Positions 40,690 through 51,194 of a stretch of 52,570 nt of DNA are shown piece by piece. The notes under the pieces were generated by a model. That model worked only from the letters and a program-made list of their open reading frames with translations, did not search any database and had not been told where the DNA came from. Location of the stretch: NCBI GenBank assembly GCA_947470575.1, contig CANITX010000003.1, positions 1-52,570 on the forward strand, given 5' to 3'. How positions within the stretch are numbered: position 1 is the first letter of the stretch; each line of letters begins with the position of its first letter. The DNA is from Rhodospirillales bacterium (GTDB lineage Bacteria; Pseudomonadota; Alphaproteobacteria; Rhodospirillales; CAMCUA01). Made by a program: the position numbers and the translations under genes.

Positions 40690-41955
40690 ATGCGCCCCGC
40701 GCCGTCGCCTGCCGTCTCGCCGCTCGACGAGGTCTATCGACAGGTGCGCGCCGCCAGCCTCGAACTGGCGTCAGGCCTTAGCGACGCCGACGCCACCGTG
40801 CAGTCGATGGACGATGCCAGCCCGGCGAAATGGCATCTGGCGCATACCACCTGGTTTTTCGAAACTTTCGTTCTTTCGCCGGACGCGCCCGGCTACCGGC
40901 TCTTCGATGAACGCTTCGGATTCCTATTCAACTCCTATTACGAAGCGGTCGGCGAACGTCACCCGCGACCGCGCCGCGGCCTGCTGACACGCCCGACGCT
41001 GGAACAGGTGCGGGCCTACCGCGACCATGTGGATACGGCGATGGCGGCCTACCTGCCGATGGCCGGCGACGCCCAACGCCAATTGATCGAACTCGGCCTG
41101 CATCACGAACAACAGCATCAGGAACTGTTGCTCACCGACATCCTGCACCTGTTCGCGCAAAACCCGTTGCGCCCCGCCTTCCGTCCGCCGGAGCCGCGGG
41201 CGGTCGATGCAGGTGGCGTCACGGTCGGCGGCTGGGCCAGCTTCGCCGGCGGGTTGATCGCCATCGGCCACGACGGCGACGGCTTCGCCTTCGACTGCGA
41301 AGGGCCGCGCCATCGGGTGTTCCAGCAGCCATACCGGTTGGGGGCGTGCCCCGTCACCAACGCCGATTGGCTGGCCTTCATGGACGACGGCGGCTACGCC
41401 ACGCCGACGCTCTGGCTGTCCGACGGTTGGGAGGCGGTACGCCGCAACGGCTGGTCGGGGCCGCTCTATTGGGAACGACGCGGCGATACGTGGTGGAGCA
41501 TGACGCTGCGCGGCCTGCAGCCCGTCGATCCTGCCCAGCCGGTCTGTCATATTTCCTATTTCGAAGCCGATGCCTTCGCCCGTTGGGTCGGCAGTCGGCT
41601 GCCGACCGAAGCCGAATGGGAGCATGCCGCTGCGCCCCGCCCCGTCGCCGGCAACTTCGCCGGCAGCGGCCGATTATGTCCCGCACCGGTTAGGCCCGGT
41701 GACGCCGATGCGCCTGCCGGCCTGTTCGGCGATGTCTGGGAATGGACGCAAAGTCCTTACGTCGGCTATCCCGGCTTCGTCCCGTCTCCCGGCGCCGTTG
41801 GCGAATACAACGGCAAGTTCATGAACGGACAGTACGTGCTGCGCGGCGGCTCGTGCGTGACGCCCGATGGTCATATCAGGGCCAGCTACCGCAATTTCTT
41901 CCAACCCGATAAACGCTGGCAGTTCTCCGGCCTGCGATTGGCAAAGGACGCCTGA
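40690..41955 (+). CDS. egtB: Ergothioneine biosynthesis protein EgtB
   Basis: DinB-like N-terminus with [19 protein letters not shown] and [23 protein letters not shown]-terminal FGE-sulfatase-like [37 protein letters not shown]. Confidence 0.93.
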
Positions 41956-42938
41956 TGCCCGCTGCCTTCGACGTGCCTTACGATTCGGCCGCCATGGCTG
42001 ACAGCGTACCGACCCCCGGCGTCTCGGAATTCGAACGTTCCGTGAAAGCCGGCCTTTCCGCCCGGATCAAGACGCTCGACAGCAAGTATTTCTACGACAG
42101 CGCCGGTTCGGCCCTGTTCGATCGCATCTGCGAGCTTGCGGAATACTACCCGACGCGCACCGAAACCACGATCCTGCGCCGTTGCGCTCCGGCCATCGCC
42201 CTGGCAGCGGGCCGCGGCGCCGAACTGGTCGAACTCGGCAGCGGCTCCAGCGTTAAGACCCGTATCCTGCTCTCCGCTCTCGACCGTCCCGCCGCCTATG
42301 TGCCGGTCGATATCAGCAGCGATCACATGCTGGGCGCTTTGCATTCCTTGCGCGCGCATTTCCCGGGGCTCGACATCCGTCCCGTCTCGGCCGATTTCAC
42401 CGAGCCGTTTGTCTTGCCGGTCCGGCGTGGCGAGGGTGTCCGCTTGCTGTTTTTCCCGGGCTCGACCATCGGCAATCTGCATCCCGCCGATGCGGAAAGC
42501 TTTCTGCGGCGCCTGCGCCGGGATTTTTCGCCCCAGGCCATGGTGATCGGCGTCGATTTGAAGAAGGACGAAGGGCTGCTACACGCCGCCTACGACGATG
42601 CCCTTGGCGTTACCGCCGCCTTTAACCTGAATATTTTGGAGCGTATCGGCCGCGAGCTGGATGCCGAAGTGCGGCCAGCATGCTTCCGCCATGAAGCCCG
42701 CTATGTCAGGGCGCTCGGGCGCATCGAAATGCACCTGGTCTGCACCGAAGACCACATGGCCCGCGTCGGCGACATGCCCATCCGATTCCACCGGGGCGAA
42801 TCCATCCATACCGAGAATTCTTACAAATATACGCTGACCGAATTCACCACGCTCGCCGAACGCGCCGGATGGCATTCCAGCGCGGCTTGGACGGACGAGG
42901 ACGGATTGTTCTCGATCCACCTGCTGGCTGCAGGTTGA
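41955..42938 (+). CDS. egtD: L-histidine N(alpha)-methyltransferase EgtD
   Basis: LDSKYFYDSAGSALFDRICELAEYYPTRTETTILRR; VELGSGSSVKTRILL; LLFFPGSTIGNLHP. Start overlaps the egtB stop (TGATG). Confidence 0.93.
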   Translation: MPAAFDVPYDSAAMADSVPTPGVSEFERSVKAGLSARIKTLDSKYFYDSAGSALFDRICELAEYYPTRTETTILRRCAPAIALAAGRGAELVELGSGSSVKTRILLSALDRPAAYVPVDISSDHMLGALHSLRAHFPGLDIRPVSADFTEPFVLPVRRGEGVRLLFFPGSTIGNLHPADAESFLRRLRRDFSPQAMVIGVDLKKDEGLLHAAYDDALGVTAAFNLNILERIGRELDAEVRPACFRHEARYVRALGRIEMHLVCTEDHMARVGDMPIRFHRGESIHTENSYKYTLTEFTTLAERAGWHSSAAWTDEDGLFSIHLLAAG

Positions 42939-43041: not shown

Positions 43042-45432
43042 ATGTTTCCGAATCCAAGCTACCCGCCGCTTCCCGAACATATCGGCCAGCATGCACGAAA
43101 CCGCCCGCTTCAGCCTGCTGTCGTTTGCGGTGAGCGCACGATCGCCTACGGGGAACTCGATGTATTGATGCGTCGCGGGGCGGCTGGCTTGCGGGCGGCA
43201 GGAGCGAAGTCCGGCGACCGGATCATGGTGGCGGCCGCCGATAAGGTCGATCTGTTGCTGGGCGTTCTTTCGGCCATGGCGGCGGGCATGCCGGTCATGC
43301 CGGTATCCGGGCGCGAGGAAGATGTCGGCCGGGTGGCGGCGGCATTTCGGCCCCGGCTGGTTGTCGTCGGATCGTCTACTGCGGGCGGCGCTCCCGACTT
43401 GGGGGATACGCCGCACCGTTTCCTCGCCGACCTATTGGCCGCCGAGCCAGGCGAATTGGCTCATGTGTCCCACGCCGACATCGGTCTGCTGATCCTGACC
43501 TCGGGAACGACCGGCGGCGAACGGCGCGGCACATTGCTGTCGCATCGGGCGCTATCGGGAACGGCCCAGTACATCAACGAACGCATGGGTGTCGACGACA
43601 CCGTGCGCGACCTCGTGACCTCGCCGTTGGAACACGGCTTCGGCATGGGGCGGACACGCTGCGCACTGCATCTCGGCGGCACCATCGTGCTGCAGTCCGG
43701 CCTGTTCACGCCGGCTTCGGCGGCCGAGACCCTGCGCGTCAAGGACTGCAACATGCTGTCGATGTCGGTCCCGGTGTTGAGCCTGCTGCTCGATACCGAG
43801 GCCCAGGCGTTGGGTGCGCTCGCCGGGCGCATCCGGTGGATCGAAATCGGCAGCAGCCATCTCAAGCCGGATCGTCGGCGGAAACTTTTGACCTTGCTGC
43901 CGCGGACCCGCTGCTTCGTCAGCTACGGCCTGACCGAGGCTATTCGTTCGACCTTCATCGAGCTCAATGCCGAACCGGCAAAGATCGATACGGTCGGCCT
44001 GCCGACGCCTTGGGTGCGGGTACGCGTCGTCGACGAAAATGACGTCGATGTGGCACCAGGCACGATCGGGCGTATCCAGGTCGACGGGGTCAACAAGGCA
44101 TCGGGCTATTACGGCTACGACGCAGCCTGGCAACGCAAGCTGCACGGCGACTGGCTGGACACCGGCGACCTCGGCACCATGGATGCCGATGGCTATCTCA
44201 GCTTTATCGGGCGCGTCGACGATACCATCAACGTTGGCGGTCTGAAGGTGGCGCCGGAAGAGGTGGAGGAGGCCTTGGTTCCGCTGTTGGCGGATACGCC
44301 CTTCGCCGTCGCGGCGGTATCCGACCCGGCGGGAATCGAAGGCTTCGTGCCCGCCCTCTTCGTCGAAGCCGATGTGGCCGAAGCGATTGGCCTCGATCGG
44401 GTGCGCGACCACCTGCGCAACCGGTTACCGGCCTTCAAGATTCCCCGTGTTGTCTACGCCGTACCCGTCTTTCCCCGTACCGCCGTCACCGGCAAGGTCC
44501 GCCGTGCCGCGCTCAGCGAGATCGCGGCTGCCAAAGAGGCGGCGCGCATCTTGTGGCCTCGTCGCCTGATGGCTGCGTTGGCCGAAGCCGGAGAACCGGC
44601 CTGGCCTACCTTCGAGGGGCGCTCCGTGCTATCGCGACGCCGGCTGTCGGAGCTGCTGGTGGGCGACGATGGCGTAGCGCTGCCAAGCGATCCCGTTCTT
44701 GTCCGTGCCGTGACCGCGCTATGCGCGGCAGCGCTCTCCGACGATCTCGATGTGGGCCGCGCCGCCGGCGATGCCCGGTCTTGGCTTCCCGCCGGGCGCG
44801 GTTCCGTGTTGGCCATCGGCAGTGTCGATCTCGATGACACGGCGGTCCTCGGGGCCCTGCTGCATGTACTGGTCGCTGGGGGCCGGTGTCTCTTGCTGGC
44901 ATCGCGCGCCGCACCCCTCATCGCCGAGGATCTCGGCTGGATCGCCCGTGGCCGAGCGCGCCATGTTTTGCTCGATGCCGGCCGCTTTGCCCGGCTGGCG
45001 GCGGCGGAGGCGCATCTAAGGGACGCTTTCGCCTATCCGGAATTCGAACAGGTGGTCATCGTCGGGTCTCAGCCCGATCCGGCGGCGATTGCCCGCTTTC
45101 ACGATGCTTTTGGCTTCATGCCCCGCCATCTGACTCGCCGCGATGGGGTCTGGTCGACGCGCGTGCTCGAACCGGCACCGCCGACTGCCGATGCGCAAGC
45201 CATTTGGTTGCGTCTGCGCGAAATCGCCGCGACGGTATTCCGATGCGCCGTCGACGATCTGGGGCCCGACGCATCGGCGGAAAATACCAAGGGGTGGGAT
45301 TCGCTCGGCTTCATCAATCTGATCCTGGAGATCGAAACCGCCTTCCAGCGGCAATTGACGCCCACTGCCATCATGACCATCGGCAGATTGGGCGATGTTG
45401 TGAAGTTGTTGGAGACCGAGACGCCGCGATAG
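43042..45432 (+). CDS. Adenylate-forming acyl/aminoacyl ligase fused to a C-terminal acyl-carrier domain
   Basis: LLILTSGTTGGERRGTLLSHRALSG; CFVSYGLTEA; GDWLDTGDLGTMDADGYLSFIGRVDDTINVGGLKVAPEEVEEAL; TAVTGKVRR; C-terminal carrier DLGPDASAENTKGWDSLGFINLILEIETAF with DSLG phosphopantetheine site. Confidence 0.88.
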   Translation: MFPNPSYPPLPEHIGQHARNRPLQPAVVCGERTIAYGELDVLMRRGAAGLRAAGAKSGDRIMVAAADKVDLLLGVLSAMAAGMPVMPVSGREEDVGRVAAAFRPRLVVVGSSTAGGAPDLGDTPHRFLADLLAAEPGELAHVSHADIGLLILTSGTTGGERRGTLLSHRALSGTAQYINERMGVDDTVRDLVTSPLEHGFGMGRTRCALHLGGTIVLQSGLFTPASAAETLRVKDCNMLSMSVPVLSLLLDTEAQALGALAGRIRWIEIGSSHLKPDRRRKLLTLLPRTRCFVSYGLTEAIRSTFIELNAEPAKIDTVGLPTPWVRVRVVDENDVDVAPGTIGRIQVDGVNKASGYYGYDAAWQRKLHGDWLDTGDLGTMDADGYLSFIGRVDDTINVGGLKVAPEEVEEALVPLLADTPFAVAAVSDPAGIEGFVPALFVEADVAEAIGLDRVRDHLRNRLPAFKIPRVVYAVPVFPRTAVTGKVRRAALSEIAAAKEAARILWPRRLMAALAEAGEPAWPTFEGRSVLSRRRLSELLVGDDGVALPSDPVLVRAVTALCAAALSDDLDVGRAAGDARSWLPAGRGSVLAIGSVDLDDTAVLGALLHVLVAGGRCLLLASRAAPLIAEDLGWIARGRARHVLLDAGRFARLAAAEAHLRDAFAYPEFEQVVIVGSQPDPAAIARFHDAFGFMPRHLTRRDGVWSTRVLEPAPPTADAQAIWLRLREIAATVFRCAVDDLGPDASAENTKGWDSLGFINLILEIETAFQRQLTPTAIMTIGRLGDVVKLLETETPR

Positions 45433-45473
45433 TCCCTGCAGGGGCCATGGCAAAGGGGTAGTGAAGGCCGGAT

Positions 45474-46628
45474 ATGTCCTACGTATCGCTCGCATGGCTC
45501 ACTGTGATGGTAGCAACGTTCAGCCTGTACTGGCTGACGCCGGAGCCTTGGCGGCGGGGGACCCTGGTGGCCGTCACCGCCGTCTTTCTTGCTTACATGG
45601 CGCCTGTTTCGGCCGTCATTCTCGTGGGCTTCACGGCTGTTACCTGTCTGATCGCCCGCCAGCCGCACCCGGCTGGATGGGTGGTGGCGACCGTCACCGT
45701 TGGCTTCATCGCCATTCTGAGTGTCTTCAAATTCGGGGCACGTGGCGCATCCTACGAGACGATCCTCAGAGAAGGCCTGATTCCCATGGGCCTGTCTTAC
45801 TATACCTTCCGTTGCCTGCACTTGATCTACGAACGCCATCGCGGCAACTTCGCCGAAACGCGCTCGGCCGAGATCGTCGCGTATCTGTTTTTCTTGCCGA
45901 CCCTGGTCGTCGGCCCGATCCATCGCTTTGGCGCTTTTCAACGCGACTTTTACCGCGTGCGGCTCGATCTGACGCTGCTCGGCGAGGGGTTGGAACGCAT
46001 CCTCTACGGCTACGTCAAAATCGCCTTCATCGGCAACTACCTGATCGGCGGCCGGCTCGGCGATTGGATGCACGGCATCCAGTCGGAGCATCCTTCGCTC
46101 TACGCCTACCTCTGGATCGTGCAGGGCGGCTGCAATCTCTATTTCCAATTCTCCGGTTTCGCCGACGTTGCCATCGGCTTTGCACGGCTGCTGGGCTTTC
46201 GGGTGATCGAAAACTTCAATTGGCCGTACTTCAGCAAAAACCTGTCGGAATTCTGGCAGCGCTGGCACATCTCGCTGACCAGTTGGTGCCGCGATTACGT
46301 CTACGGTGCCGTCGTCTCGGTGACGCGTAGTCCGGCGCTTGGCGCCATCGCGACCTTGCTGGTCATTGGCCTGTGGCACGAACTGTCGCTGCGCTTCATC
46401 TGCTGGGGCCTGTTCCACGGTTTCGGTCTGATCGTCTGGCAGCGCTTCCAGATCGTGAAGCGCCGCCTGCCTGCTGTCGTCTGGCCGCCGGCGCAGGCGG
46501 CGCTCGCCGTGCTATCGACGCTGTTGACGGTGCATTACACTTGGTTTGCCTTCGCCATCGTGCGCAAGCCCGATCTTGCCGGCGTGTTGAGTGTCTGGGG
46601 TGCCGCCACGATAGGATTCTTCCAGTGA
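45474..46628 (+). CDS. MBOAT-family O-acyltransferase (DltB/AlgI-like)
   Basis: PMGLSYYTFRCLHLIYERHRGN; FLPTLVVGPIHRF; NFNWPYFSKNLSEFWQRWHISLTSWCRDYVY; GLWHELSLRFICWGLFHG. Confidence 0.9.
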   Translation: MSYVSLAWLTVMVATFSLYWLTPEPWRRGTLVAVTAVFLAYMAPVSAVILVGFTAVTCLIARQPHPAGWVVATVTVGFIAILSVFKFGARGASYETILREGLIPMGLSYYTFRCLHLIYERHRGNFAETRSAEIVAYLFFLPTLVVGPIHRFGAFQRDFYRVRLDLTLLGEGLERILYGYVKIAFIGNYLIGGRLGDWMHGIQSEHPSLYAYLWIVQGGCNLYFQFSGFADVAIGFARLLGFRVIENFNWPYFSKNLSEFWQRWHISLTSWCRDYVYGAVVSVTRSPALGAIATLLVIGLWHELSLRFICWGLFHGFGLIVWQRFQIVKRRLPAVVWPPAQAALAVLSTLLTVHYTWFAFAIVRKPDLAGVLSVWGAATIGFFQ

Positions 46629-46636
46629 GGGATGCC

Positions 46637-46774
46637 ATGTACCGCCTGTTGCACCGCCATCTGCCGCAACCGTATGCCGTCGCCGTGTCCGCGTTGTGGT
46701 ACGTGGGTCTATTGGCGCTGGCGGCCTATGGCGCCTTCGAACCGCAGGCGGAATTCCAGTATCTGGTGATGTAG
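46637..46774 (+). CDS. 45-aa single-TM microprotein, candidate DltX-like acyl relay peptide
   Basis: MYRLLHRHLPQPYAVAVSALWYVGLLALAAYGAFEPQAEFQYLVM; starts 8 nt after the MBOAT stop with GTGAGGG upstream; one hydrophobic helix, then a C-terminal F-x-Y. Confidence 0.7.
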   Translation: MYRLLHRHLPQPYAVAVSALWYVGLLALAAYGAFEPQAEFQYLVM

Positions 46775-46781
46775 CGGCGCC

Positions 46782-47996
46782 TCAGCGGGCGGCGTTGCAA
46801 CCCTTGCCGCGTTCGGCGATCAGCCGCGCGACGGCGGTATTGGCCGCCAGGCCGTCGCCGACGATGGCGCCCAAGATCGCGCTGCCGGCAGCGGTCGTGT
46901 GGACCGTATCGGCATAGTAGTTCGGTCTGGCTGGCATCCGTTCGACGGTGGCGATGAACGGTGCGGCGTGCGCCGCCGCGGCTTCGCGCAGCCGGGCGTT
47001 ATAGGAATAGAAAGCCTCGGTGACGTCGCCGGTGTAGGCTTGGGGAACGTAGACGGCCCGGGTCGCCGTGCCGGCCAGATTCGTTGCGCCGGCAAGGGCC
47101 AGTTGCTCGTCGGCCGATTGCTCTCGGCGCAGCCATGGCGCCTTCTCGACCACGACGGGCAGCACCCCCTGCTCCTTGGTTGTTGCCAACAGGTGGCCGG
47201 CTTCGGAACCGACGTCGGCCAGCATGACCGGCAGATCGATCCGTTTGGCAAGGTCGCGGCGGCCGGCGATGCGCAGCAGCTGCTCGGCTTCCATGTTTTT
47301 CTCCACCGTCCGCCACAGGTGGGAATGCTTGGCCAACCAGCTCGGCCGGTATTCGCCGTCGCCCAGGTTCAGGTGCCGGCGCGCCATGGAAAAAATGTCG
47401 TTGAGCATGACGACGGCGATGTCGGGGGCATATGGCTGCGTATCCTCGACGAAGCGGCTTTCCACGGCGCGGGTGATGTCGCCGAGCACGCCGGCATTGA
47501 CGAAGTCGAAGCGGCAGCGGGGATAGGCCGCGCCGAGTCGCGCCATGGCAACGGCCGGCCAGGTTTCGTTGTCGTGTGTCACAAAGAGGTCAAACGTTCC
47601 TGAAGCGCCCAGAAAGGCGATGCGGACGGTACCCTCGGGCTTGGGTATGGCCACGGCCTTGCCGCGAAAGCCTTGGTCGCTGAATTGAATGCGGCCGAGA
47701 ACCGCGTTGGGTCGCGGCCGACGGCGCTCGCCGACGGACTCCCAGACGTTTCGGTTGACGACGGACTCGACCGCCGGTCCCTGGCTGCCGAAGCGATAGT
47801 ATTGTTCGGCGCGCAGCGCGATCTCACCGGCCGCGAAGACCATGCATAGCGCCGCCGGCGCCGCCAATCCGATGAACACGTCCCGCTGCCACGGTGGCAG
47901 AGCCGCCAACCGCCGCCACAGTCTGGCGAAGACCGACGGACGGGCCGCTGCTGCCGACGTTGCGGTTGACGTCGCGGGGTTCTCGAAGGTGAACAT
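46782..47996 (-). CDS. Membrane-anchored SGNH-hydrolase-like protein
   Basis: TM VFIGLAAPAALCMVFAAGEIAL; block I FLGASGTFDLFVTHDNETWP, block II FVNAGVLGD, block III VVMLNDIFS, block V YADTVHTTAAGSAILG. Confidence 0.75.
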   Translation of the reverse strand: MFTFENPATSTATSAAAARPSVFARLWRRLAALPPWQRDVFIGLAAPAALCMVFAAGEIALRAEQYYRFGSQGPAVESVVNRNVWESVGERRRPRPNAVLGRIQFSDQGFRGKAVAIPKPEGTVRIAFLGASGTFDLFVTHDNETWPAVAMARLGAAYPRCRFDFVNAGVLGDITRAVESRFVEDTQPYAPDIAVVMLNDIFSMARRHLNLGDGEYRPSWLAKHSHLWRTVEKNMEAEQLLRIAGRRDLAKRIDLPVMLADVGSEAGHLLATTKEQGVLPVVVEKAPWLRREQSADEQLALAGATNLAGTATRAVYVPQAYTGDVTEAFYSYNARLREAAAAHAAPFIATVERMPARPNYYADTVHTTAAGSAILGAIVGDGLAANTAVARLIAERGKGCNAAR

Positions 47997-48092: not shown

Positions 48093-48965
48093 TCAGTGGG
48101 GCCGTTCGCCCTTGATCAGCGTGCGATACAGGCGCCGCTCCTGGGTCGTGTCCAGCGGATCGTAATCGTAGTTGGCCTTGTGCAGGGCGGAGCGGTTGTC
48201 CCAGATCAGCACATCGCCCAGCGACCACTGGTGGTTATAGATGTACTGCGGCTTCAGCGCGTGTTCGACCAGCTCGTCCAGCAGCTTGTGCGATTCGACC
48301 GGCGTCATGCCGACGATGTTCTCGACCCGGCCGGGGTGGAAATAGATCGCCTTCTTGCCGGTATCGGGATTGGTGCGCACCAGCGGATGGATCACCGGCT
48401 CCGGGTTGGCCGCCTTCTGCCAGGCCAGCCGGTCGGAATTGACGTTCTTCGAGGCGCTGCCGGCGATGACGTTGACCGTCTGCATGGCGTCGATGCGCTT
48501 CTTCGTCGCTTCCGGCAACGCGTCGTAGGCGGCGCGCATGTTGGCGATGCCCGTCGATCCGCCGCCGGTCTCGAACAGCTTGACGGCGTAAAGCATCGTG
48601 TACTTGGGCGGGAATTCGTGGTTGGCGTGATCGGTGTGCCAGCGCGGACCGGTATAGTTGACCGTGCCGTCCTTGTTGCGGTGATGGCTGGAGATGATGT
48701 GCACCTGCGGCAGGTCCGGCAACGAATGGGTCGAATAGTCGCGCGCCTGCGGTTCGCCGAACAGGCAGGCGGCGTCGTAGAACTGCCGCGGGCCATCGAA
48801 CGTCTGATCCTTGATGACCAGCGCGATGTTCTGAACCAGGGCTTCGTTCAGCCGGCGCTTGGTTTCCGCGTCCACCGGCTTGGACAGGTCGACGCCTCTC
48901 ACCTCGGCGCCGATGTGCTCCGAAATCTTGCGGACCTTCATGGAATCTTGGGTTCGAATTTGCAT
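48093..48965 (-). CDS. TauD/TfdA-family dioxygenase
   Basis: MQIRTQDSMKVRKISEHIGAEVRGVDLSKPVDAETKRRL; RWHTDHANHEFPPKYTMLYAVKLFETGGGSTG; IWDNRSALHKANYDYDPLDTTQERRLYR. Confidence 0.9.
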   Translation of the reverse strand: MQIRTQDSMKVRKISEHIGAEVRGVDLSKPVDAETKRRLNEALVQNIALVIKDQTFDGPRQFYDAACLFGEPQARDYSTHSLPDLPQVHIISSHHRNKDGTVNYTGPRWHTDHANHEFPPKYTMLYAVKLFETGGGSTGIANMRAAYDALPEATKKRIDAMQTVNVIAGSASKNVNSDRLAWQKAANPEPVIHPLVRTNPDTGKKAIYFHPGRVENIVGMTPVESHKLLDELVEHALKPQYIYNHQWSLGDVLIWDNRSALHKANYDYDPLDTTQERRLYRTLIKGERPH

Positions 48966-49074
48966 GGACGTCTCCCTGGACGGTCGGTGGGCCTTTGCCT
49001 TGGGGGGCATGCTACTCCCGCCCATGCAAAATCGCAAAAGCCCTGTGCCAAACCGCAAAAGCCAAGCGCCGGCC

Positions 49075-50457
49075 TCAGCCCCGCTTGGCCATCCCCGCCG
49101 GCAGATTCTCTCCCGGTGCCGTTTCCATGGCTTGGGCCAGCCATTTGCGCTTCGGCCACACGACGATCGACACGACGATCAGGAACAACGCCGTCGCCCC
49201 GGCCAGGGCGATCCTGAGGCCCCACACTTCGGCCGCCAGCCCGACCGCCCAGGCGCCGACCGAAGGCCCGCCGCGGGTGCCCATCGACCACAGGCTCATC
49301 ACCCGGCCTCGCATGCTGCCGTGAATGGCGCTTTGCACCAGCACCTGGCTGCCGATGCCGTAAAATCCCATGAACATGGCCAGCACGCCGACGCTGACGA
49401 TGCCGACCCAATAATTTCCCGTCGCCGTGATCGCGAATTGGCACAGCGCCGCCAGCAGCGCCGCGCCCAGCAATAGCCGGGTCAACCCCTCGACCCGGCT
49501 GAACTTGGTCAGGAACGCCGAACCGAAGATGGCGCCCAGGCCCGCCGCCGATTGCAGCGCCGCGAAGCCGTGCACCCCGGCGCCGTAAACCCCGTCGGCC
49601 AGCCCGGCCAACAGATCGCGGTGCGAGCGCAGCACGATGTTGACCAGCAGCATGTTGAGCATGAACAGGCCCAGGCCCTCGCGGCACAGGCAATAGCGCA
49701 AGCCTTCCGCCAGGTCGGCGACGAAGCGCGAATCCTTTGCCCGCTTGGTCTCCACCGTGCGCAGCCGGATGATGCACAGCACGATCAGATAGCCGATGAA
49801 GGTCGAGCTGTTGATCAGGAACAGATAGCCGATGCTGTCGCGGTGATCGCCCATGACGGCCAGCACCAGCCCGGCCAGCGCCGGGCCCAGGAATTGCGCC
49901 AGATTGAACAGCACGGCGCCCATGCCGATGGCCGACGGCAGGTCCTCGCGCGGCACCAGATTGGCCGCCATGCTGAGCCGGATCGGCGTCCAAAAGGCCT
50001 GCGCCGTGCCATAGACCGCCATCAGCCCGATCAGGCTCCAGATCGTTACCATGTCGAACACGGTGAGCAGGCCGAAGGCGCCGGCCAGCACGATCAGCGT
50101 CGCTTGCGCCAGGCGCCCCAGCTTCAACCGGTCGCCGCGGTCCACCAGCGCCCCGAACAGCGGCAGGAAGGCCATCAGCGTTGCCGCCTCGGCCAGCGCC
50201 ACGGCGGCCAGCCAGGCATAGGATTCGGTCAGCGACCAGGCCAGCCATTGCACGCCGACCCGCTGGATCCACAATCCCATGTTGGAAACGAAGCCGGCCG
50301 GCGCGTACAGGCGGAAATCCCGGTGGCGCAAGGCGCGCAGGATTCCCCCTTCGGCGAACAGGCCGCGCGCATAGGCGACGATACGGGCGATGCTGGTTAC
50401 TCCGGGACGCGGGTGGATGTCGGTATTCTGGGCCGCGTCGTCGCCCCTGGCAACCAC
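49075..50457 (-). CDS. MFS transporter
   Basis: ALRHRDFRLYAPAGFVSNMGLWIQRVGVQWLAWSLT...LFGALVDRGDRLKLGRLAQATLIVLAG; multiple TM segments. Start uncertain: the ORF extends to 50586, overlapping the upstream gene; a GTG at 50457 is plausible. Confidence 0.82.
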   Translation of the reverse strand: MVARGDDAAQNTDIHPRPGVTSIARIVAYARGLFAEGGILRALRHRDFRLYAPAGFVSNMGLWIQRVGVQWLAWSLTESYAWLAAVALAEAATLMAFLPLFGALVDRGDRLKLGRLAQATLIVLAGAFGLLTVFDMVTIWSLIGLMAVYGTAQAFWTPIRLSMAANLVPREDLPSAIGMGAVLFNLAQFLGPALAGLVLAVMGDHRDSIGYLFLINSSTFIGYLIVLCIIRLRTVETKRAKDSRFVADLAEGLRYCLCREGLGLFMLNMLLVNIVLRSHRDLLAGLADGVYGAGVHGFAALQSAAGLGAIFGSAFLTKFSRVEGLTRLLLGAALLAALCQFAITATGNYWVGIVSVGVLAMFMGFYGIGSQVLVQSAIHGSMRGRVMSLWSMGTRGGPSVGAWAVGLAAEVWGLRIALAGATALFLIVVSIVVWPKRKWLAQAMETAPGENLPAGMAKRG

Positions 50458-50495
50458 GGCGCCTCGCGCCCTTAGACCACGGCGCCGCGCGCCTC

Positions 50496-51194
50496 TCAGA
50501 CGACCGTACCGACCAGCTTGCCGATACCCGCCGTCAGCGCCATGGCCAGCGCCCCCCAGAAGGTCACCCGCAAGGTTGCCTTCCACACCACGGCGCCGCC
50601 GGCCCGCGCCCCGATCGCGCCGAGCAGCGCCAGGAACAACAGCGACGCCACCGCCACCGCCACCGCCAGATAGGCTTGCGGCGCCACCACCACCATGGCC
50701 AGCGGCATCGCCGCCCCCACCGAAAAGGTGGCGGCCGAGGTCAGCGCCGCCTGCACCGGCCGCGCCGTGGTGATTTCGGAAATGCCCAGCTCGTCGTGGG
50801 CATGCGCCCCCAGCGCGTCCTTGGCCATCATCTGATCGGCGATCTGGCGGGCCAGCCCCGTCTCGACGCCGCGCTTCACATAGATCTGCGCCAGTTCCTC
50901 GCGTTCCAACTCCGGCTGGCTGGCCAGCTCGGCCCGCTCCCGGTCCAGGTCGGCGCGTTCGGTGTCGGCCTGCGAACTGACCGACACGTATTCCCCCGCC
51001 GCCATCGACATCGCCCCCGCCACCAGCCCGGCGACGCCGGCGATCAGCACCTCCGACGTCGCCGTCGCCGCCGCCGCCACGCCGACGATCAGGCTGGCCG
51101 TCGAAACGATGCCGTCGTTGGCGCCCAGCACGGCGGCGCGCAGCCAGCCAATGCGCGACACCAGGTGGCGTTCGGAATGCAGGTGGCGCGGCAT
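50496..51194 (-). CDS. VIT1/CCC1-family protein
   Basis: HLVSRIGWLRAAVLGANDGIVSTASLIVGVAAA...AGLVAGAMSMAAGEYVSVSSQADTERADLDRE. Confidence 0.92.
   Translation of the reverse strand: MPRHLHSERHLVSRIGWLRAAVLGANDGIVSTASLIVGVAAAATATSEVLIAGVAGLVAGAMSMAAGEYVSVSSQADTERADLDRERAELASQPELEREELAQIYVKRGVETGLARQIADQMMAKDALGAHAHDELGISEITTARPVQAALTSAATFSVGAAMPLAMVVVAPQAYLAVAVAVASLLFLALLGAIGARAGGAVVWKATLRVTFWGALAMALTAGIGKLVGTVV

Follow-up and report, generated by a model that had tools for sequence, protein, structure and literature searches.

The reading frames at 43042-47996 of the window (the whole stretch of 52,570 nucleotides analysed here, from the Rhodospirillales genome G000) are exactly the four genes of the initial annotation, and all four are present as judged from reading frames and Pfam domains (Table 1). 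The first encodes, as annotated, a ligase fused to a carrier, with Pfam AMP-binding (5.7e-43) and PP-binding (9.8e-07) domains in a single chain, and is followed by an MBOAT gene (Pfam MBOAT, 8e-19) and, starting 8 bases past the MBOAT stop, a microprotein gene. The fourth, encoding an SGNH protein (Pfam Lipase_GDSL_2, 8.4e-08), is convergent with the microprotein gene and ends 7 bases beyond it. No glycan genes adjoin the four-gene locus, and a search for plasmids gave no hit.

Table 1. Features of the four-gene locus and its flanking genes in the window
Feature	Position	Strand	Evidence
egtB and egtD (ergothioneine synthesis)	40690-42938	+
Ligase-carrier fusion, 796 aa	43042..45432	+	Pfam AMP-binding and PP-binding
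Phe200, A4-motif site (Asp in amino-acid-activating domains)	43639..43641	+	Alignments with LgrA domain 2 and fused ligases
Lys485, A10-motif catalytic lysine	44494..44496	+	Invariant in nine fused ligases (alignment)
Degenerate repeat of second Rossmann-like adenylation subdomain	44737..45171	+	AlphaFold strand-helix order, hhalign
Ser754 of GWDSL, phosphopantetheine attachment site	45301..45303	+	Invariant in nine fused ligases
MBOAT, DltB type, 384 aa	45474..46628	+	Pfam MBOAT, NCBIfam DltB below cut-off, PDB DltB
DltX-like microprotein, 45 aa	46637..46774	+	GAGGG upstream, counterparts elsewhere, dN/dS
SGNH protein, 404 aa	46782..47996	-	Pfam, alignment, AlphaFold, Foldseek
TauD-family dioxygenase and MFS transporter	48093-50586	-

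Domains and active-site residues of the four proteins

The ligase consists of an adenylation domain (aa 1-500), a degenerate second adenylation subdomain (aa ~566-710) and the carrier (aa ~717-793). In an alignment of nine fused ligases, which span large distances, motifs A3, A5 and A7 retain their key residues and GWDSL is invariant. In the window clade, motifs A3 and A10 of the ligase each contain a one-residue insertion, so that its activity is not certain. Residues 566-710, found only in G000, G001 and G025 (all within one order of Alphaproteobacteria), show in the AlphaFold model, where this region is of moderate confidence, the same succession of strands and helices as the second subdomain of the adenylation domain (189-307). 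A first hhalign comparison with the whole ligase was insignificant, a restricted profile comparison of the subdomain repeat gave a score of 34.3 versus at most 19.7 in 100 column shuffles, and the middle domain had no match in the PDB by sequence. The segment resembles what is left of a second ligase, a reading that would fit the separate second AMP-binding gene adjoining the ligase-carrier gene in L032, G341 and G223.

The description of the MBOAT as DltB-like stood in one respect and fell in another. DltB chains are its only PDB relatives by sequence (best 2.7e-31), and His265 and His302, invariant in seven relatives, align with the WH residues of these chains. On the DltB family TIGR04091, however, it scores about 166-167 bits against a cut-off of 375, and ordinary (fused-motif) MBOATs of the same genome reach 174 bits; we therefore rejected the family score as proof of DltB, and the label "DltB-like" by that score alone is not diagnostic. 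The protein ends in ATIGFFQ and lacks a C-terminal Tyr shuttle motif of its own. Three further MBOATs are encoded in the window genome, on contigs C7, C35 and C68 (C7 and C35 being loci L113 and L114); those on C7 and C35 end in the fused motifs FIYFRF and FLYWQF, respectively, so that split and fused systems coexist in this genome.

A GAGGG sequence precedes the ATG of the microprotein, which has a basic N-terminus (RLLHRHLP) and one hydrophobic stretch forming a predicted transmembrane helix. A basic N-terminus before a single helix predicts that the N-terminus is cytoplasmic and the C-terminus extracytoplasmic, as in DltX. The 45-aa single-helix peptide of the initial annotation is retained, with the correction that FQY is not its extreme end and belongs to a terminal FQYLVM that includes Tyr42 and closes with Met instead of the Phe of FxYxxF.

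The SGNH protein proved, as annotated, to be a candidate membrane-anchored enzyme, with a predicted N-terminal transmembrane anchor (aa ~38-66) and a predicted catalytic triad of Ser132, Asp363 and His366, invariant in five aligned proteins. Its AlphaFold model (pLDDT 81) matched GDSL/SGNH esterases in Foldseek with probability 1.00. DltD was absent from the Pfam and NCBIfam families and from the best 50 Foldseek folds listed for this protein, in which the anchor and the Ser/Asp/His residues are present.

Conservation of the gene set and of the split shuttle motif

The initial annotation had made its reading depend on the neighbourhood recurring in relatives, and the four-gene set does co-occur, in partly different gene order, in G001, G025, G223, L031 (a Nitrosomonas MAG), L032 (a BD1-7 clade gammaproteobacterium), G341, G967, G881 and G761. 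G001 is a sister genome of the genus and G025 belongs to another genus of the order; the sets of the Nitrosomonas MAG, the gammaproteobacterium and the five other Pseudomonadota genomes are wider variants. In G001, from the same genus, the MBOAT (80% identical) is followed by the microprotein and an inverted SGNH gene, and the ligase (67% identical) sits at one end of a different contig, preceded, like that of the window, by egtB and egtD. All four genes are co-directional in G025, from another family of the order (MBOAT 62% identical), and the same gene set was found in G223 and L031, with the SGNH gene again co-directional. The SGNH inversion, annotated as a departure from the canonical operon, is therefore real but local to the genus of the window. 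The microprotein of G967 lies upstream of its ligase. In L032, G341, G881 and G761 the SGNH-like protein is smaller; it has a GxS motif, and its Asp and His are C-terminal.

Several neighbouring genes were also recorded. The egtB and egtD products are an FGE-sulfatase/DinB protein and a histidine-specific methyltransferase; in the window the two genes end 103 bases before the ligase, and neither turned up in the 18 kb surrounding the G025 ligase. The dioxygenase and transporter genes share the orientation of the SGNH gene; their identity to G001, 90% for both, exceeds that of the acylation genes, and they were not found near the G025 locus. In two distant loci, L031 and G967, a Sulfotransfer_3 gene sits between the ligase-carrier and MBOAT genes (L031:2987-3910, L137:7133-8053), and the substrate of its product might be either the acceptor or the acyl group on the carrier.

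Profile searches (E <= 1e-60 to 1e-70) retrieved matches, window genome included, in 5 of 317 genomes of the order, 3 of 399 of a phylum sample and 4 of 385 of a class sample, which indicates a sparse distribution. Codon comparison between the window and G001 gave dN/dS values of ~0.22 for the ligase, ~0.13 for the MBOAT, ~0.38 for the SGNH protein and ~0.09 for the microprotein, the last being rough because dS is near saturation. All four genes are under purifying selection. With the low dN/dS of the microprotein and with a Tyr-ended microprotein in 11 other loci, the four-gene observation is not a chance one.

The separate shuttle motif distinguishes these loci from most MBOAT loci. Among 125 other MBOAT loci, some of them duplicates, 120 encode an MBOAT, usually of ~470 aa, with [FYWLMV]xYxxF at its own C-terminus; this C-terminal motif occurs on the MBOAT in 0 of 11 split relatives, all 11 of which have a separate one-helix microprotein with the Tyr kept. 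Nine of the 11 microproteins were found by an automatic scan, and those of G967 (upstream of the ligase) and G761 (divergent motif) by looser reading; the scan's microprotein count for fused loci was left out, as it mostly reflected the MBOAT's own C-terminus. Microprotein ends vary around the Tyr: FHYLAM (G025), FRYGRY (G223), FAYLEI (L031), FIYAGF (G967), FIYWDQ (L032), FIYWDN (G341), ILYFDV then GSSR (G881) and NPYLDL then HRTK (G761). A maximum-likelihood tree with 41 rows placed the 12 split MBOATs, that of the window among them, apart from 26 fused ones (branch support 98/90), and the ten MBOATs accompanied by a ligase-carrier fusion formed a subclade (98/98). DltB entered this tree as a partial sequence from a PDB alignment, on a very long branch of unsure placement, and no canonical DltB over the cut-off was found in the genomes reached through loci of other phyla.

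The split loci of G142, G397 and G006 resemble the window in their short MBOAT, Tyr-motif microprotein (FKYQGF, FRYAGF and IAYQQF, respectively) and SGNH-like protein, and differ in that the carrier is not fused to the ligase: G142 and G397 have a separate ligase, and G142 and G006 show a gene for a free carrier. The G006 locus (same order; L169:3497-7414) comprises the free carrier, a 41-aa microprotein, an AlgX-like SGNH protein and a 417-aa MBOAT without C-terminal motif, with an ACP_syn_III-type gene on the other strand. It is another carrier-fed split system and appears to lie in a surface-polysaccharide cluster.

Relation to known systems and cargo of the ligase

With the Dlt system of Gram-positive bacteria (DltA, DltB, DltC, DltX and DltD) the locus shares an adenylating ligase, a carrier, a short MBOAT, a one-helix microprotein with a C-terminal Tyr hexapeptide and an anchored SGNH-type protein. 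Unlike in Dlt, and as annotated with regard to the canonical operon, the carrier forms the C-terminal part of the ligase chain rather than a free-standing DltC; in addition, the ligase lacks the A4 Asp and has an extra degenerate adenylation subdomain, family models do not identify the SGNH protein as DltD, and the MBOAT falls far under the DltB cut-off. A Dlt-like locus in a Gram-negative is supported but not new as such, since dlt genes are known in Dickeya and Pectobacterium (PMC3544676, PMC5541007). The Gram-negative PatA-PatB and AlgI-AlgX/J systems likewise combine an MBOAT, an SGNH protein and a Tyr shuttle motif (PMC12148441), and acyl-Tyr shuttle chemistry is established for DltX and PatA (PMC12148441). 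In those systems, however, the MBOAT itself carries the motif, on extra helices, whereas that of the window is a separate protein, and their donor is acyl-CoA, whereas the window operon has a conserved carrier domain. Given a Dlt-like anatomy from which several features of D-alanylation are missing, the locus is best filed, on sequence grounds, as a real and new carrier-fused MBOAT-microprotein-SGNH relay variant of the Dlt / MBOAT-SGNH kind, and not as D-alanylation proper.

Amino-acid adenylation domains bind the amino group of their substrate through the Asp of motif A4. Phe200 of the window ligase aligns with this Asp in the reference, gramicidin synthetase LgrA domain 2, which makes D-alanine unlikely as the substrate. 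The best NCBIfam matches of the ligase are fatty-acyl and other CoA ligases, with no DltA model among the best 25 listed. An alpha-amino acid thus appears an unlikely cargo in the window clade, and the cargo of the window ligase is probably not an amino acid; of the "acyl or aminoacyl group" initially proposed, we keep the acyl part and regard the aminoacyl part as improbable in this clade. Aminoacylation proper, in which an ordinary Dlt system transferred to a Gram-negative would charge D-Ala, Gly or similar, draws on the Asp (HxDG) at this site in seven more distant fused ligases, as in amino-acid ligases, on the separate ligase of G397, which has the Asp (SFDFG) and scores on DltA models, and on the Gram-negative dlt genes of Dickeya (PMC3544676). 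Since the A4 site is Phe in the window, G001 and G025, we consider this reading rather unlikely for the locus. The separate ligase of G142 also lacks the Asp, and the difference between the window clade and its distant relatives suggests that the cargo probably differs among members of the fused-ligase family.

The A3 and A10 insertions and degenerate extra subdomain of the window-clade ligase could also mean that it makes only acyl-CoA, or is inactive, with the carrier a leftover and the MBOAT drawing on acyl-CoA like PatA, a fused-motif MBOAT that uses acetyl-CoA (PMC12148441). The invariance of GWDSL over large distances and the ligase dN/dS argue against a vestigial carrier or ligase, and make this quite improbable. 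That the ligase-carrier serves an NRPS or lipid pathway unrelated to the MBOAT-SGNH pair, next to which it would lie by chance, is largely refuted and highly improbable: although the nearest solved relatives of its adenylation domain include NRPS and CoA ligases, the fusion accompanies this MBOAT clade in nine other genomes, and the homologues found adjoin this MBOAT and not NRPS loci, contrary to a possibility that the initial annotation had itself raised.

A proposed acyl relay

We consider it likely that the locus encodes a carrier-fed, microprotein-type MBOAT-SGNH acyl relay, Dlt-like in its working and with a different loading module. Judging from its intact motifs, the ligase would adenylate a carboxylic acid in which no alpha-amino group is recognised, and then load the acyl group onto the phosphopantetheine of its own carrier, at Ser754. 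By homology to DltB, the MBOAT would unload the carrier on the cytoplasmic side and, by way of its funnel and His302, transfer the acyl group to the Tyr42 phenol of the extracytoplasmic FQYLVM. From this acyl-Tyr the group may move to Ser132 of the anchored SGNH protein, which would in turn esterify a hydroxyl of an envelope glycan or lipid. Co-occurrence supports the original proposal of a Dlt counterpart that would acylate an envelope glycan or lipid. The relay also draws on the domains, active-site residues and selection, on the alternation of fused and split motifs, and on the branch that sets the split MBOATs apart. Counting against it are the Met that closes the motif, the failure of the SGNH protein to match DltD in the families and folds listed, the A3 and A10 insertions, and the absence of adjoining glycan genes.

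According to a 2025 study, MBOAT/SGNH pathways other than Dlt have neither a carrier protein nor a DltX-like microprotein (PMC12148441), and none of the papers covered by our literature search describes, apart from dlt, a Gram-negative MBOAT-SGNH system fed by a carrier. By contrast with that statement, the present locus and its relatives have both components, in Gram-negatives and with the carrier fused to the ligase, and such a family shows that a design with carrier plus microprotein is not confined to D-alanylation. It also offers natural variants in which the choice of cargo would differ at a known residue. On a broader scale, the case seems to us evenly balanced that these loci represent a widespread but sparse Pseudomonadota pathway, in which a carrier-bound non-amino acyl group, e.g. 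a hydroxy acid, would be passed to the microprotein Tyr and across the inner membrane to an envelope polymer, amounting to a new surface modification with a self-loading ligase. The locus also points to an envelope modification that mass spectrometry could look for.
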